DNA from: Candidatus Omnitrophota bacterium
GTDB taxonomy: Bacteria; Omnitrophota; Gorgyraeia; Zapsychrales; Zapsychraceae
Length of the DNA: 38,107 nucleotides
Assembly (NCBI GenBank): GCA_020053475.1
Contig: JAGVNC010000021.1
Coordinates: forward strand, 1 to 38,107
Direction of reading: 5' to 3'
In this document: piece after piece, positions 31,344 through 35,355 of the stretch
Layout: each line of letters opens with the position of its first letter
Numbering within the stretch: position 1 is the stretch's first letter
Notes under the pieces: model-generated
Database searches by the model: none
Seen by the model: the letters and a program-made list of their open reading frames with translations, nothing else
Told to the model about the DNA's origin: nothing
Translations under genes and position numbers: made by a program

Positions 31344-31373
31344 TTGACACTCTCCACTGAACCATTCTATACT
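31344..31373 (+). promoter_or_regulatory. Promoter of the pilin-like gene
   Basis: A consensus TTGACA (31344-31349) and TATACT (31368-31373) with an 18-base spacer, 26 bases before the start codon. This is among the best promoter matches of the window. The remaining 31197-31343 between the divergent pfp and pilin genes shows no gene. Confidence 0.8.
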
Positions 31374-31399: not shown

Positions 31400-31903
31400 A
31401 TGAGAATTAAAACCAAAAAGGCAATGACATTGCTCGAAATTACGACCGTTGTCGTTATTCTGGGAACCATGGCCGCCTTAGCCTTCCCTAGATATCAAAT
31501 CATATTAGAGAAATTCAAAGCGCAGGAGCAAGTGCATCTCATGTTAGCCATCATGGTAGCGCAAAAACAGTATTATCTTGATTATATTGATCCTGTGGAT
31601 CATCATCATAAATACCCTCTTTTTTTTACCGACTTAGACATCGGTATTGGGTCCTCACTAAATTTCGCTGCACCACTTTTGGGTTGCGGCGCAACGGGCG
31701 GACTGGGAGGTAATTGCCAGTCTGGTTTTGCTACCAATTTCCCTTCCTGCTCCGCAGGGCTTCAACCTTATCTAGTCCGAGTGAAAAGAATCAATTTTAC
31801 CCCGGACTATTATCTCTATGCCCATGAAAATGGGACTATTTGGTGTAAGCCCGTTAGTGGGGCATGCCCTGGAATATGCCCTAAATTGGGCTTTAAATAC
31901 TAA
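31400..31903 (+). CDS. Type IV pilin/pseudopilin-like protein with an unusual cleavage site
   Basis: 167 residues. A basic leader (MRIKTKKA) is followed by the class III signal MTLLEITTVVVILGTMAALAF, a hydrophobic N-terminal helix with Glu at +5, as needed for pilin assembly. The residue before the cleavage point is Ala rather than the usual Gly, which prepilin peptidase sometimes accepts. The C-terminal half has a central helix and a Cys-rich region (GCGATGG, GNCQSG, SCSAG, WCKPVSGACPGICP), eventually giving disulfides and a globular head. AAGGA precedes the ATG by five bases. It may be a minor pilin or a secretion pseudopilin. No other pilus gene is in the window, so orphan expression is likely, possibly linked to the c-di-GMP-controlled gene downstream. 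Confidence 0.8.
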   Translation: MRIKTKKAMTLLEITTVVVILGTMAALAFPRYQIILEKFKAQEQVHLMLAIMVAQKQYYLDYIDPVDHHHKYPLFFTDLDIGIGSSLNFAAPLLGCGATGGLGGNCQSGFATNFPSCSAGLQPYLVRVKRINFTPDYYLYAHENGTIWCKPVSGACPGICPKLGFKY

Positions 31904-32151: not shown

Positions 32152-32180
32152 TTGTGTATAGATTATTCTTCGTTTATACT
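32152..32180 (+). promoter_or_regulatory. Promoter of the riboswitch-subtilase transcript
   Basis: TTGTGT (32152-32157), a 17-base spacer and TATACT (32175-32180). The predicted start near 32187 precedes the aptamer by about 15 bases, as expected for a leader that begins with a riboswitch. Confidence 0.65.
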
Positions 32181-32202
32181 TAAGGTAGTTCTTTGAAGAT
32201 AG

Positions 32203-32293
32203 AGCGTTTTGACGAAAAGGCTAACTCCGAGCAATCGGAGGGCGCAAAGTCAACGGGTCCTAAAATTGGGATAGCCAGACTACCGAATCAAGC
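32203..32293 (+). ncRNA. Cyclic-di-GMP-I (GEMM-I) riboswitch aptamer
   Basis: The conserved core is found in order. GGCTAAC (32219-32225) carries the ligand G at 32219 (Vc2 G20). Stem CTCCGA/TCGGAG (32225-32230/32235-32240) is capped by a GCAA GNRA tetraloop. GCGCAAAGTC (32242-32251) carries the intercalating A at 32246 (Vc2 A47). The second helix GGGTCC...GGGATAGCC (32255-32276) has the bulged tetraloop-receptor side, and CTACCGAA (32280-32287) carries the second ligand C at 32283 (Vc2 C92). The flanks TTTTGA (32207-32212) and TCAAG can close P1. G at the G20 position argues for c-di-GMP rather than the A20 cGAMP subtype. Assigned by manual alignment to the Vibrio Vc2 aptamer; not run through a covariance model. 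Confidence 0.88.
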
Positions 32294-32310
32294 ACAGGCA
32301 TTTGATCATC

Positions 32311-32345
32311 AAGCCTATTCCCAATTCGGAATAGGCTTTTTTATT
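32311..32345 (+). terminator. Terminator serving as the riboswitch expression platform
   Basis: AAGCCTATTCC (32311-32321), loop CAATTC, GGAATAGGCTT (32328-32338), running into TTTTTTATT. It lies 18 bases after the aptamer and 25 bases before the first start codon. The eight bases TCCCAATT (32319-32326) of its left arm and loop are exactly complementary to AATTGGGA (32264-32271) in the aptamer helix, a ready-made antiterminator. If the ligand holds the aptamer, the terminator would form, so an OFF switch is predicted. Confidence 0.82.
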
Positions 32346-32369
32346 ATTCGACCTGAAAAGGGAAAAAAC

Positions 32370-32402
32370 ATGAAAAATTTCTTAATGAATAAGGAGTCAT
32401 AA
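32370..32402 (+). CDS. Possible 10-residue leader ORF before the subtilase
   Basis: ATG at 32370 with AAGGG upstream encodes MKNFLMNKES and stops one base before the subtilase ATG; its last codons AAG GAG form the SD of the subtilase. It may couple translation of the two, or be chance. Confidence 0.35.
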   Translation: MKNFLMNKES

Positions 32403-32403
32403 A

Positions 32404-34821
32404 ATGAAAACTTTTAAAATCATGGTTAGTTTTTTACTTATGGGAGGGGTGGTCTTCATCGGGCGTTTCGCTTTTGCAGCTAATCCCTACCCGAATTGTC
32501 ACAATGGCGTGAATAATGGGAATTTTGGCCCCGTAAACGTCTGTTATTCCAAAGTCAAGCTGATGCCTCCCTATGAAAAACTTCAGGCGAAATACCCTGG
32601 GATGTATATATGGGAAGCCGAAACCCGTTTACAAAAAGAAGAGAGTTGGAAAGATAAATTACCCGGGGCGACTTCAACTTCTTACGATCAATATAACGAA
32701 TTGAGAATTGTTAACTTGAAAACAGGAGACAGTTCTTCGGAAGCGTTAACGTCTAATTCGCCTGCGACGCCGACCACGGATGCCGCAGTAACCAAGAAAA
32801 ATCAGAGCAACCTTTCCAATGCGGTTTCTTTAGAATCAGGGGACATGGGAAACACGAGTTTAGGAAACGGCCAAGTCATTGCCAAGAAAACTTGTCCCAT
32901 CGATACCTTGGGTCCAGAGGTATGCGATATCCTGCATAACCAAGTTGATTTCAATTCTGAAACTAAAGTAAAGATGGATGATGAAATCAATGCGGATGGA
33001 AGCACCACAGCGGTCAATGTTTATCATTACAACGTGTTGTCAGGACATTCAGCGGCCCAGATTGCAGATGCGATCAATGCCCTTTTCCCAACAATGGTTG
33101 AACGAGGGGGTATTAAGCCAAGCGACCCTATGTCAACACTGCCTCAGGGAGGACAAGCAAGTACGTATGCACAGAAATCATCGAATTCAAAATCTATTGC
33201 CTTCCCAGAGCCTAAGGGGCATGCGGCAAGCCTTCCGTTGGATCCGTTTGTTTCTCAGGATGGATTTAGTTTTGCCCAAGATATCGATGGTTATTCTTAT
33301 GTTGAACCTTATAAGATTGTCGAAGCTAATAATTCATTTGATCCCGATGTTGTTAATCCTGCGGCCCTGGAAATTGTGGCCAGCATCGATTCCGGGATGG
33401 ATTTTGATCACCCGGACGTCATGAACCGGATTGCCATCACCCAATCCGAATTACCTACGGCGATTCGCGTAGCGGCAGATAGCAATGGGGATGAATACGT
33501 TACCATTCCGGAACTTTTATCTTATTTCGCCGTTAGCAAACCTTCGCAACTATTTAGCCCGGCGATTAAAGCACAGTGGGCTGACGGGATTGACGGAGAC
33601 AACAATGGATATAAAGATGACGTTCTTGGTTGGGATTTTGTTGATCATGACAACTACCCGTTTGATGAAGTGACAACGACCGGGAATCAATCTCACGGGA
33701 CCGGCATGACTGGGATCATCGCAGCCCAAGCGAATAATGGACAAGGCTTAGCCGGGCTAGCTTCCAGCAATACCTTAATTAAACCCTTACGCGTCATTCG
33801 TCCGGATGGGGACGTCAGGAATATAGACGTGCTTTTAGCGCTAAAATCGATCGGCCGGTCAGACGAAAACGCGACTAAAATCAGTACCATATATATCGGG
33901 GCTTCCCTTTTTCAAGATCCCGGGTTGCTTTACATGATTGAAAATCTTAAGGCAGACAATGAGAAAGCCGTTGTCTTAACTCCCGTTGGGGATGACGGGA
34001 TTGTGATGGATCGAGGCATCTCCTCGACACATAACGTGATAGGCGTGGGCGCGACAGATATCTTTAACCAAGTTGCGCCTTATTCTAATAAAGGCCCTGT
34101 GGTATTATTGGTCGCTCCAGGAGAACATCAACTTTCCAGCTATACAACGAATCCCGCGGCGCCCAGTTCACCTTTCCTACAAGATCCTAAGTATAAATAT
34201 TATGTAGGGACATCAACATCCGGGGCCATTGCTTCTTCTTTACCATCCATTATGCGTAAACGCGTTCACGAACTTGAACAGATCTTAGGCGTTAACACGG
34301 GATGGAAGGGAGCGCATGATAAAATCTGGATGATGCTCGGAGCCAGCGCCCTTGATTCTAGCCTCAATAATATATCCTCAGGAAATGGGCTAATTAATTT
34401 CGCCGATTCAATTTCAGCGGCTGAAAAGTTTGTCCAAAAAATGGCCTCTAGCCCGAGTGGGATCGCCAGCGTGAAGGAAACACGCGCTTATTCCGTTGCT
34501 TGTACGATTTCAGGAAGCCAAGTGACGGTCAGTTTCTCTCAACAGGCACTGGTGAATCCTAATGCCAGTATTCTTCATGGCGTGGATATTTATAACCCTC
34601 TATATGAATATCTATTCGGCGATGCGTGGGCACCTTTATTCCTGGACAGCCTTAACGTCCAAACGCCGTGGAGAATGTTTATAACGGATGGGACAACGGA
34701 TCCTTTAACGTTTACAGCCATCCCGTTACCCCAAAAAGCGCGTTTTCATATTAACCAAGATAATTATTCCTTTGAAGAACTGCAGCCGACCAATCAGACG
34801 CTCGAGGTCGATTGTAAATAA
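32404..34821 (+). CDS. Secreted subtilisin-like (S8) protein under riboswitch control
   Basis: 805 residues: signal peptide (1-26, cleavage after AFA), a long N-terminal region (27-315) rich in Ser/Asn/Gln, then an S8 domain. The catalytic triad is present: Asp329 in SIDSG, His431 in SHGTG, Ser604 in GTSTSG. The oxyanion Asn is not: the usual AAGN segment reads PVGDD (Asp530), and the Pro after GTS is absent, so activity may be weak or altered. A calcium-type segment DGIDGDNNGYKDD lies before the His, and an EF-hand loop DSNGDEYVTIPE (359-370) is inserted between Asp and His. The final ~130 residues are beta-rich with two cysteines. SD AAGGAG. Being behind a c-di-GMP switch, it probably acts on surface adhesins or pili; that is inference. 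Confidence 0.85.
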   Translation: MKTFKIMVSFLLMGGVVFIGRFAFAANPYPNCHNGVNNGNFGPVNVCYSKVKLMPPYEKLQAKYPGMYIWEAETRLQKEESWKDKLPGATSTSYDQYNELRIVNLKTGDSSSEALTSNSPATPTTDAAVTKKNQSNLSNAVSLESGDMGNTSLGNGQVIAKKTCPIDTLGPEVCDILHNQVDFNSETKVKMDDEINADGSTTAVNVYHYNVLSGHSAAQIADAINALFPTMVERGGIKPSDPMSTLPQGGQASTYAQKSSNSKSIAFPEPKGHAASLPLDPFVSQDGFSFAQDIDGYSYVEPYKIVEANNSFDPDVVNPAALEIVASIDSGMDFDHPDVMNRIAITQSELPTAIRVAADSNGDEYVTIPELLSYFAVSKPSQLFSPAIKAQWADGIDGDNNGYKDDVLGWDFVDHDNYPFDEVTTTGNQSHGTGMTGIIAAQANNGQGLAGLASSNTLIKPLRVIRPDGDVRNIDVLLALKSIGRSDENATKISTIYIGASLFQDPGLLYMIENLKADNEKAVVLTPVGDDGIVMDRGISSTHNVIGVGATDIFNQVAPYSNKGPVVLLVAPGEHQLSSYTTNPAAPSSPFLQDPKYKYYVGTSTSGAIASSLPSIMRKRVHELEQILGVNTGWKGAHDKIWMMLGASALDSSLNNISSGNGLINFADSISAAEKFVQKMASSPSGIASVKETRAYSVACTISGSQVTVSFSQQALVNPNASILHGVDIYNPLYEYLFGDAWAPLFLDSLNVQTPWRMFITDGTTDPLTFTAIPLPQKARFHINQDNYSFEELQPTNQTLEVDCK

Positions 34822-34850
34822 AGGATTCTTCGCCACGGGAACTTTCCTTA

Positions 34851-34886
34851 AAACCCCCTTCTGCACAGGAAGGGGGTTTTTATTTT
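34851..34886 (+). terminator. Intrinsic terminator after the subtilase
   Basis: AAACCCCCTTC / GAAGGGGGTTT (34851-34861 and 34869-34879) with loop TGCACAG and a following TTTATTTTTAT. A strong, clear terminator 30 bases after the stop codon. Confidence 0.92.
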
Positions 34887-34932: not shown

Positions 34933-35355
34933 ATGAATCCTCCCAATAACCAACGCCGGAAATTTCTTTACGCCAATCAATATCAACGGCAAATCGTTGC
35001 CCTGGCTTTTTACCCCTCGTTGATCATTGGCATCGTTATTTCTTTGCTTCTCATCCAATTTTTTAAAGATTTAGTCGAGATCATTATTTACGGCACGTCG
35101 CGCCCGCAAATCGCATTGATTATGGAATGGGCGATGTTTGTCCTCGCCTGCCTATGGGTGCCCATCTTGGCTGTCATTTTTATCGCGCACAGCGCTTCAA
35201 AAAATTTAGTCGGAGCCTTTGGCCGCATTTTAAGGGAACTTGATGAAGTCATCGAAGGCAAGAAACGTACCCCCATCAAGGCTCGCGCCAAGGATGATTT
35301 GGCCAATGATCTGTTGAAGCGTATCAACGCGCTGATCGAAAAACTTCCGAAATAA
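34933..35355 (+). CDS. Two-helix membrane protein with an orphan HAMP-like domain
   Basis: 140 residues: a polar basic N-tail, TM1 about 22-45 (IVALAFYPSLIIGIVISLLL), a short loop, TM2 about 62-86 (IMEWAMFVLACLWVPILAVIFI), then residues 89-138 with the two-helix heptad pattern of HAMP linkers (ASKNLVGAFGRILRELDEVIEG ... AKDDLANDLLKRINALIEKL). No kinase, cyclase or methyl-accepting domain follows; the protein ends at the HAMP. It may pair with another signalling protein, or act alone as a membrane sensor of unknown output. It sits between terminators as a monocistronic unit. Confidence 0.7.
   Translation: MNPPNNQRRKFLYANQYQRQIVALAFYPSLIIGIVISLLLIQFFKDLVEIIIYGTSRPQIALIMEWAMFVLACLWVPILAVIFIAHSASKNLVGAFGRILRELDEVIEGKKRTPIKARAKDDLANDLLKRINALIEKLPK

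Follow-up and report, generated by a model that had tools for sequence, protein, structure and literature searches.

We analysed a window of 38,107 nucleotides (the whole stretch of DNA under study) in which a gene for a secreted S8 subtilase follows a pilin-like gene on the same strand and is preceded by a structured leader. The features on which the analysis draws are as follows.

31344-31373, + strand: separate strong promoter of the pilin-like gene, TTGACA-18-TATACT
31400-31903, + strand: pilin/pseudopilin-like gene, 167 aa (weak GspG and IV_pilin_GFxxxE matches)
32152-32180, + strand: leader promoter TTGTGT-17-TATACT, start near 32187 (read from the sequence)
32209-32287, + strand: c-di-GMP-I (GEMM-I) aptamer (Rfam RF01051)
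32225-32240, + strand: P1b hairpin CUCCGA-GCAA-UCGGAG with GNRA loop (cmscan alignment)
32264-32274, + strand: putative antiterminator strand A, AAUUGGGAUAG, the 3' strand of the distal aptamer helix P3 (complementarity and order-wide covariation)
32311-32345, + strand: intrinsic terminator, an 11-bp stem (32311-32338) followed by a U tract
32315-32326, + strand: putative antiterminator strand T, CUAUUCCCAAUU, terminator 5' arm and loop (complementarity and covariation)
32391-32396, + strand: Shine-Dalgarno-like AAGGAG (read from the sequence)
32404-34821, + strand: secreted S8 subtilase, 805 aa, with signal peptide, triad D329/H431/S604 and oxyanion Asp530 (PF00082, translation, alignments)
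34850-34880, + strand: terminator after the subtilase gene

The secreted subtilase

The product of the subtilase gene matches PF00082 (Peptidase_S8) at 72.3 bits against 21.8 (E 5.3e-20), and an alignment of 15 subtilases shows no variation at D329, H431 and S604; proteolytic activity is plausible. The altered oxyanion residue described in the original prediction is present, in that Asp530 replaces the Asn found in nearly all other subtilases compared; Asp also occupies this position in the riboswitch-linked subtilase of genome G008 and in L066. The focal enzyme resembles S8 subtilases in which the oxyanion Asn is replaced, such as proprotein convertase 2 with its Asp, in combining an oxyanion Asp with an intact Asp/His/Ser triad. 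It differs from them in being bacterial and secreted, in its length of 805 aa and in its low overall similarity (about 30%) to the other subtilases of its order. A scan for close homologues in named genomes returned distant subtilases of other phyla alone, and the structure prediction for the protein was poor (mean pLDDT 46.8). Behind the subtilase gene, 34933-35355 encodes a membrane protein of 140 aa that ends in a HAMP-like tail; its weak match to the diguanylate cyclase YfiN/DgcN falls outside the catalytic part.

A c-di-GMP-I aptamer and a terminator in the leader

The original prediction placed a GEMM-I aptamer in the subtilase leader and named a search with the Rfam RF01051 covariance model as one way to check it; that scan gave a match of 56.1 bits over the full model (1-87), above the gathering cut-off of 35 (E 1.7e-8). 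In the cmscan alignment the conserved core is present, the P1b loop is GCAA and therefore of GNRA type, and the equivalent of G20, the ligand-selectivity position, is G32219, a G and not the A of cGAMP types. The tetraloop receptor is weaker than claimed: the CCUAA half of the canonical 11-nt motif is present and UAUGG is absent, in a family for which the motif is not obligatory. The focal aptamer shares with RF01051 the full-length match, the 5' leader position, the selectivity G and the GNRA loop, and differs from it in its short P3 and its half receptor. By family, 32209-32287 is an authentic c-di-GMP-I riboswitch aptamer, with c-di-GMP as the presumed ligand.

The remaining leader elements are laid out around the aptamer. 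The -10 element of the leader promoter, TATACT, recurs in the 70 nt before the aptamer at 98 of 194 loci in the order, compared with 1.6% of background windows. Downstream of the aptamer, the claimed terminator is indeed present as AAGCCTATTCC-CAATTC-GGAATAGGCTT-TTTTATT, with a predicted energy of -16.6 kcal/mol. Between terminator and subtilase gene lies a 10-codon ORF (MKNFLMNKES, 32370-32402), whose stop codon ends 1 base before the ATG and which may couple translation.

Covariation of the antiterminator pairing

Eight bases of the aptamer, AATTGGGA at 32264-32271, had been claimed to be complementary to the terminator; they pair perfectly with TCCCAATT at 32319-32326, and the helix is in fact longer, continuing through GATAG/CTAT to a total of 11 bp, interrupted by a single bulged U, with energies of -11.5 to -14.6 kcal/mol. 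The 7-bp run that lies outside the lineage-conserved AUAG/CUAU has P = 0.0024 against shuffled strands.

We examined this pairing in 195 aptamer loci from 55 genomes of the same order, of which 131 loci were usable in a comparison of own with permuted pairs. As loci were sampled mainly by score and the 328 aptamers found are related, permutation p-values overstate independence and serve as guides. The P3 strand paired better with the 5' arm of its own terminator (-8.26 kcal/mol) than with permuted partners (-7.04 kcal/mol; p=0.0002, the test floor), and the P1b strand likewise showed an own-pair excess with its terminator 5' arm (p=0.0002), while four other windows of the same aptamers, taken as controls, had none (p=0.12 to 0.87). 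The flanking bases co-vary even with the AUAG/CUAU core set aside, over 98 loci and over 48 dereplicated loci (p=1e-4). A blunter test, using maximum duplex energy over the whole aptamer (p=0.005 against swaps), was superseded by the fixed windows and this tail-only test. Subtilase leaders in genomes G014, G009 and G021 build the same helix from other bases, as in AAUUGGAUAG/CUAUCCAAUU at G014. Because the pairing co-varies order-wide, the controls are flat and other subtilase leaders use different bases, there is good evidence from comparative sequence that the alternative P3/terminator pairing is under selection and does not arise by chance, and the built-in antiterminator of the original prediction draws its support from the same covariation.

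A separate terminator together with an aptamer strand complementary to the terminator 5' arm is the layout of the C. difficile Cd1 OFF switch, in which the aptamer and the terminator can form together while a transient antiterminator competes with them (PMC9262584). The focal leader resembles Cd1, which lies upstream of the flagellar operon (PMC9262584), in the coexistence of aptamer and terminator, the competing antiterminator formed from an aptamer strand and kinetic action, this last being predicted for our leader. It differs in its target, a protease here and flagella in Cd1; in the focal leader, switching would rely on the 3' strand of P3, the distal helix. The covariation supports a transcriptional OFF switch of the Cd1 kind.

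Folding model and predicted polarity of the switch

Our model predicts that, without ligand, the P3 3' strand (32264-32274) would invade the nascent terminator 5' arm and loop (32315-32326), and that this antiterminator pairing would block the terminator and allow the secreted subtilase to be made. With c-di-GMP bound, the aptamer would retain the P3 strand, the terminator would form and transcription would stop; ligand is expected to stop transcription because the strand held by the aptamer leaves the terminator free to form. The full-length minimum free energy fold consists of aptamer plus terminator, at -49.0 kcal/mol. In an equilibrium model, antiterminator occupancy reached at most 15%, with the transcript ending at 32326, and fell to almost none once the terminator 3' arm was complete; ligand cut occupancy about 25-fold from this low level, and the enforced aptamer pairs were likewise poorly populated. 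We rejected a purely equilibrium switch on this ground, and switching would therefore have to be kinetic.

The aptamer, terminator, complementarity, covariation and recurrent subtilase linkage were all computed; we infer the ligand, the OFF polarity, the kinetics and the biological role. We consider it likely that the leader is a c-di-GMP-I riboswitch acting as a transcriptional OFF switch, and that it belongs to a c-di-GMP riboswitch regulon of secreted and surface genes (pilins, subtilases, other exported proteins) that extends across the lineage. The repression by ligand foreseen in the original prediction is supported, as a prediction of polarity, by the architecture of the leader and by the order-wide covariation.

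Two other accounts of the leader concern its output and its ligand. The aptamer could bind c-di-GMP while the terminator is near-constitutive, or the switch could be ON, the antiterminator being a relic or too weak to act; such a reading would fit a minimum free energy fold that already holds aptamer and terminator (-49.0 kcal/mol) and an antiterminator that peaks at 15%, and some leaders of the order, including the G038 subtilase leader, build terminators from the aptamer 3' end. We judge it rather unlikely, since a relic would not be expected to co-vary across the order as this pairing does, and the known ON layout, that of pilM, in which the terminator overlaps the aptamer (PMC9262584), is absent here because focal terminator and aptamer do not overlap. 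As to the ligand, cGAMP aptamers share the fold of c-di-GMP-I aptamers and originally carried a c-di-GMP annotation (PMC9262584), so 3',3'-cGAMP might be proposed in place of c-di-GMP. This is very improbable, given that G at the selectivity position is linked to c-di-GMP (PMC9481103). In keeping with a c-di-GMP switch, five GGDEF matches occur in the host genome; three sites, in the two loci that were read, carry GGEEF, and all three have Asp in the GHxxGD motif. cGAMP synthases are reported to differ at this Asp position, which again argues against cGAMP as the ligand.

The pilin-like neighbour

The original prediction also set a pilin gene beside the subtilase gene. The ORF at 31400-31903 is real, and its family match is weak: GspG TIGR01710 gave 2.8e-5, TIGR02532 reached 15.8 bits, just under the cut-off of 16.3, and a search of Pfam found no match for this ORF. 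A functional link between the two genes was not supported. The RF01051 scan gave no riboswitch match for the pilin-like gene itself, and a pilin-like N-terminus was absent from the flanking ORFs listed at ten other riboswitch-subtilase loci. Inverse regulation of pilin and protease was not supported either: two riboswitch-linked pilin operons of this genome (L007 and L009) have OFF-type leaders, of the same sense as the protease leader.

The neighbourhood admits two further readings. The C. difficile protease ZmpI, which sheds the adhesin CD2831, is controlled by a type I OFF riboswitch (PMC4591827), and by analogy a fall in c-di-GMP might release our subtilase to trim the neighbouring pilin or other surface proteins; a secreted protease that is predicted to be OFF at high c-di-GMP and that adjoins a pilin-like gene is consistent with such a role. 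We find this unlikely, because none of the other ten loci showed a pilin-like gene among the flanking ORFs listed and the L007 and L009 operons carry same-sense leaders. The Zmp1/PPEP-1 analogy of the original prediction, which pointed to adhesin release, is accordingly not supported, the pilin-like gene having moreover its own promoter. Alternatively, the leader might chiefly attenuate read-through from the pilin-like gene, so that pilin and protease formed one attenuated operon. A search of the interval from the pilin stop (31903) to the leader promoter found no terminator-like site, as such an operon would have it; we nevertheless hold this reading to be quite improbable, since the leader owns a TTGTGT-17-TATACT promoter that matches the order-wide TATACT upstream of aptamers, and the pilin is not conserved beside other riboswitch-subtilase copies. 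What remains of the likeness to ZmpI/CD2831 (PMC4591827) is a secreted protease, a type I c-di-GMP riboswitch and a predicted OFF response at high ligand; the focal protease is an S8 subtilase and ZmpI a metalloprotease, and the inversely controlled neighbouring substrate was not found here. Because the neighbouring pilin did not recur among the ORFs listed at the other loci, two pilin leaders of this genome are OFF-type, and ZmpI/CD2831 depends on inverse control of the neighbouring substrate (PMC4591827), the likeness reaches no further than a secreted protease under a putative c-di-GMP OFF switch.

Riboswitch-linked subtilases across the order

The preferred reading, a c-di-GMP OFF switch that belongs to a wider regulon, draws on the distribution of the aptamer. 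The host genome (2.03 Mb) has ten RF01051 matches at E<=0.001, of which eight exceed the family cut-off; among the genes behind them are pilin operons, a second, small subtilase and genes for exported proteins. RF01051 matches occur in all 55 genomes of the order, 328 in total. Of the 68 S8 domains in these genomes, 11 lie within 900 nt downstream of an aptamer on the same strand, among them the second subtilase of the host genome; the expectation was 0.085 (P 4e-20). About a quarter of the sampled aptamers, 49 of 195, precede pilin-like ORFs by a motif rule, ORFs and pilins being assigned by simple rules throughout. The 12 S8-labelled loci, among which the L018 label is a marginal match (8e-5), comprise seven P3-type OFF, one ON-type and four unassigned leaders; over all 195 loci, the rule left polarity unassigned in 74. 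In a minority of leaders of the order the terminator uses the aptamer 3' end, an ON layout as in pilM.

The sensor is of a known type, and by these genomic counts its repeated use before secreted subtilases (and pilin genes) across the order is a recurrent target class. In the part of the literature covered, we found no c-di-GMP riboswitch named together with an S8 peptidase, and the sequence comparisons make this a well-supported case of predicted riboswitch control of secreted subtilases by c-di-GMP, recurring in several families of one order. The large natural set of leaders with co-varying antiterminator strands should also help to decipher how a single aptamer fold comes to be coupled to OFF or ON outputs. 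More tentatively, c-di-GMP-I OFF switches may govern secreted proteases and many pilins throughout the order by means of two interchangeable antiterminators (P3 and P1b), such that a fall in c-di-GMP would release subtilases for dispersal or surface remodelling; we put this forward as a possibility that is more doubtful than otherwise.

Several further observations concern individual copies. Among OFF-assigned leaders, those of subtilases use the P3 strand as antiterminator in 7 of 7 cases and those of pilins the P1b strand in 22 of 31 (Fisher p=0.0009, under a rule that tests P3 first). The second, small S8-type protein of the host genome (253 aa) lies directly behind a c-di-GMP-I aptamer (L010/L125, G000:C20:34324-34411, - strand) that scores 29.6 bits, below the cut-off, and a similar aptamer/S8 pair occurs in G012. 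At L116 (1126-1319, G003:C9), tandem c-di-GMP-I matches precede a subtilase, and the terminator behind the second aptamer uses the aptamer 3' end, an ON-type layout. Two aptamers upstream of small lipoprotein-like genes (L146 and L150) read GCC...GACGG instead of GGC...GACGC, so that the base pair adjoining the ligand-contact G is swapped in a compensatory way.

The order also carries a long RNA of c-di-GMP-I type (L005 1501-1691, from G000:C76:2888 onward; relatives L241-L270, L023, L075, L085 and L104). Most copies are about 171-226 nt long, and P3 contains a large insertion. The RNA starts with GCCGATAAAGGYAAAC, and its 3' end, CTTTATCGGC, is complementary to the 5' end. Of the 55 genomes, 45 contain the 16-nt start, as a single occurrence in all but one of these, with a promoter just upstream and varied genes downstream. 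This RNA may be a standalone c-di-GMP RNA, or may be a cis switch of the Cys-containing protein of about 100 aa that is often encoded downstream.
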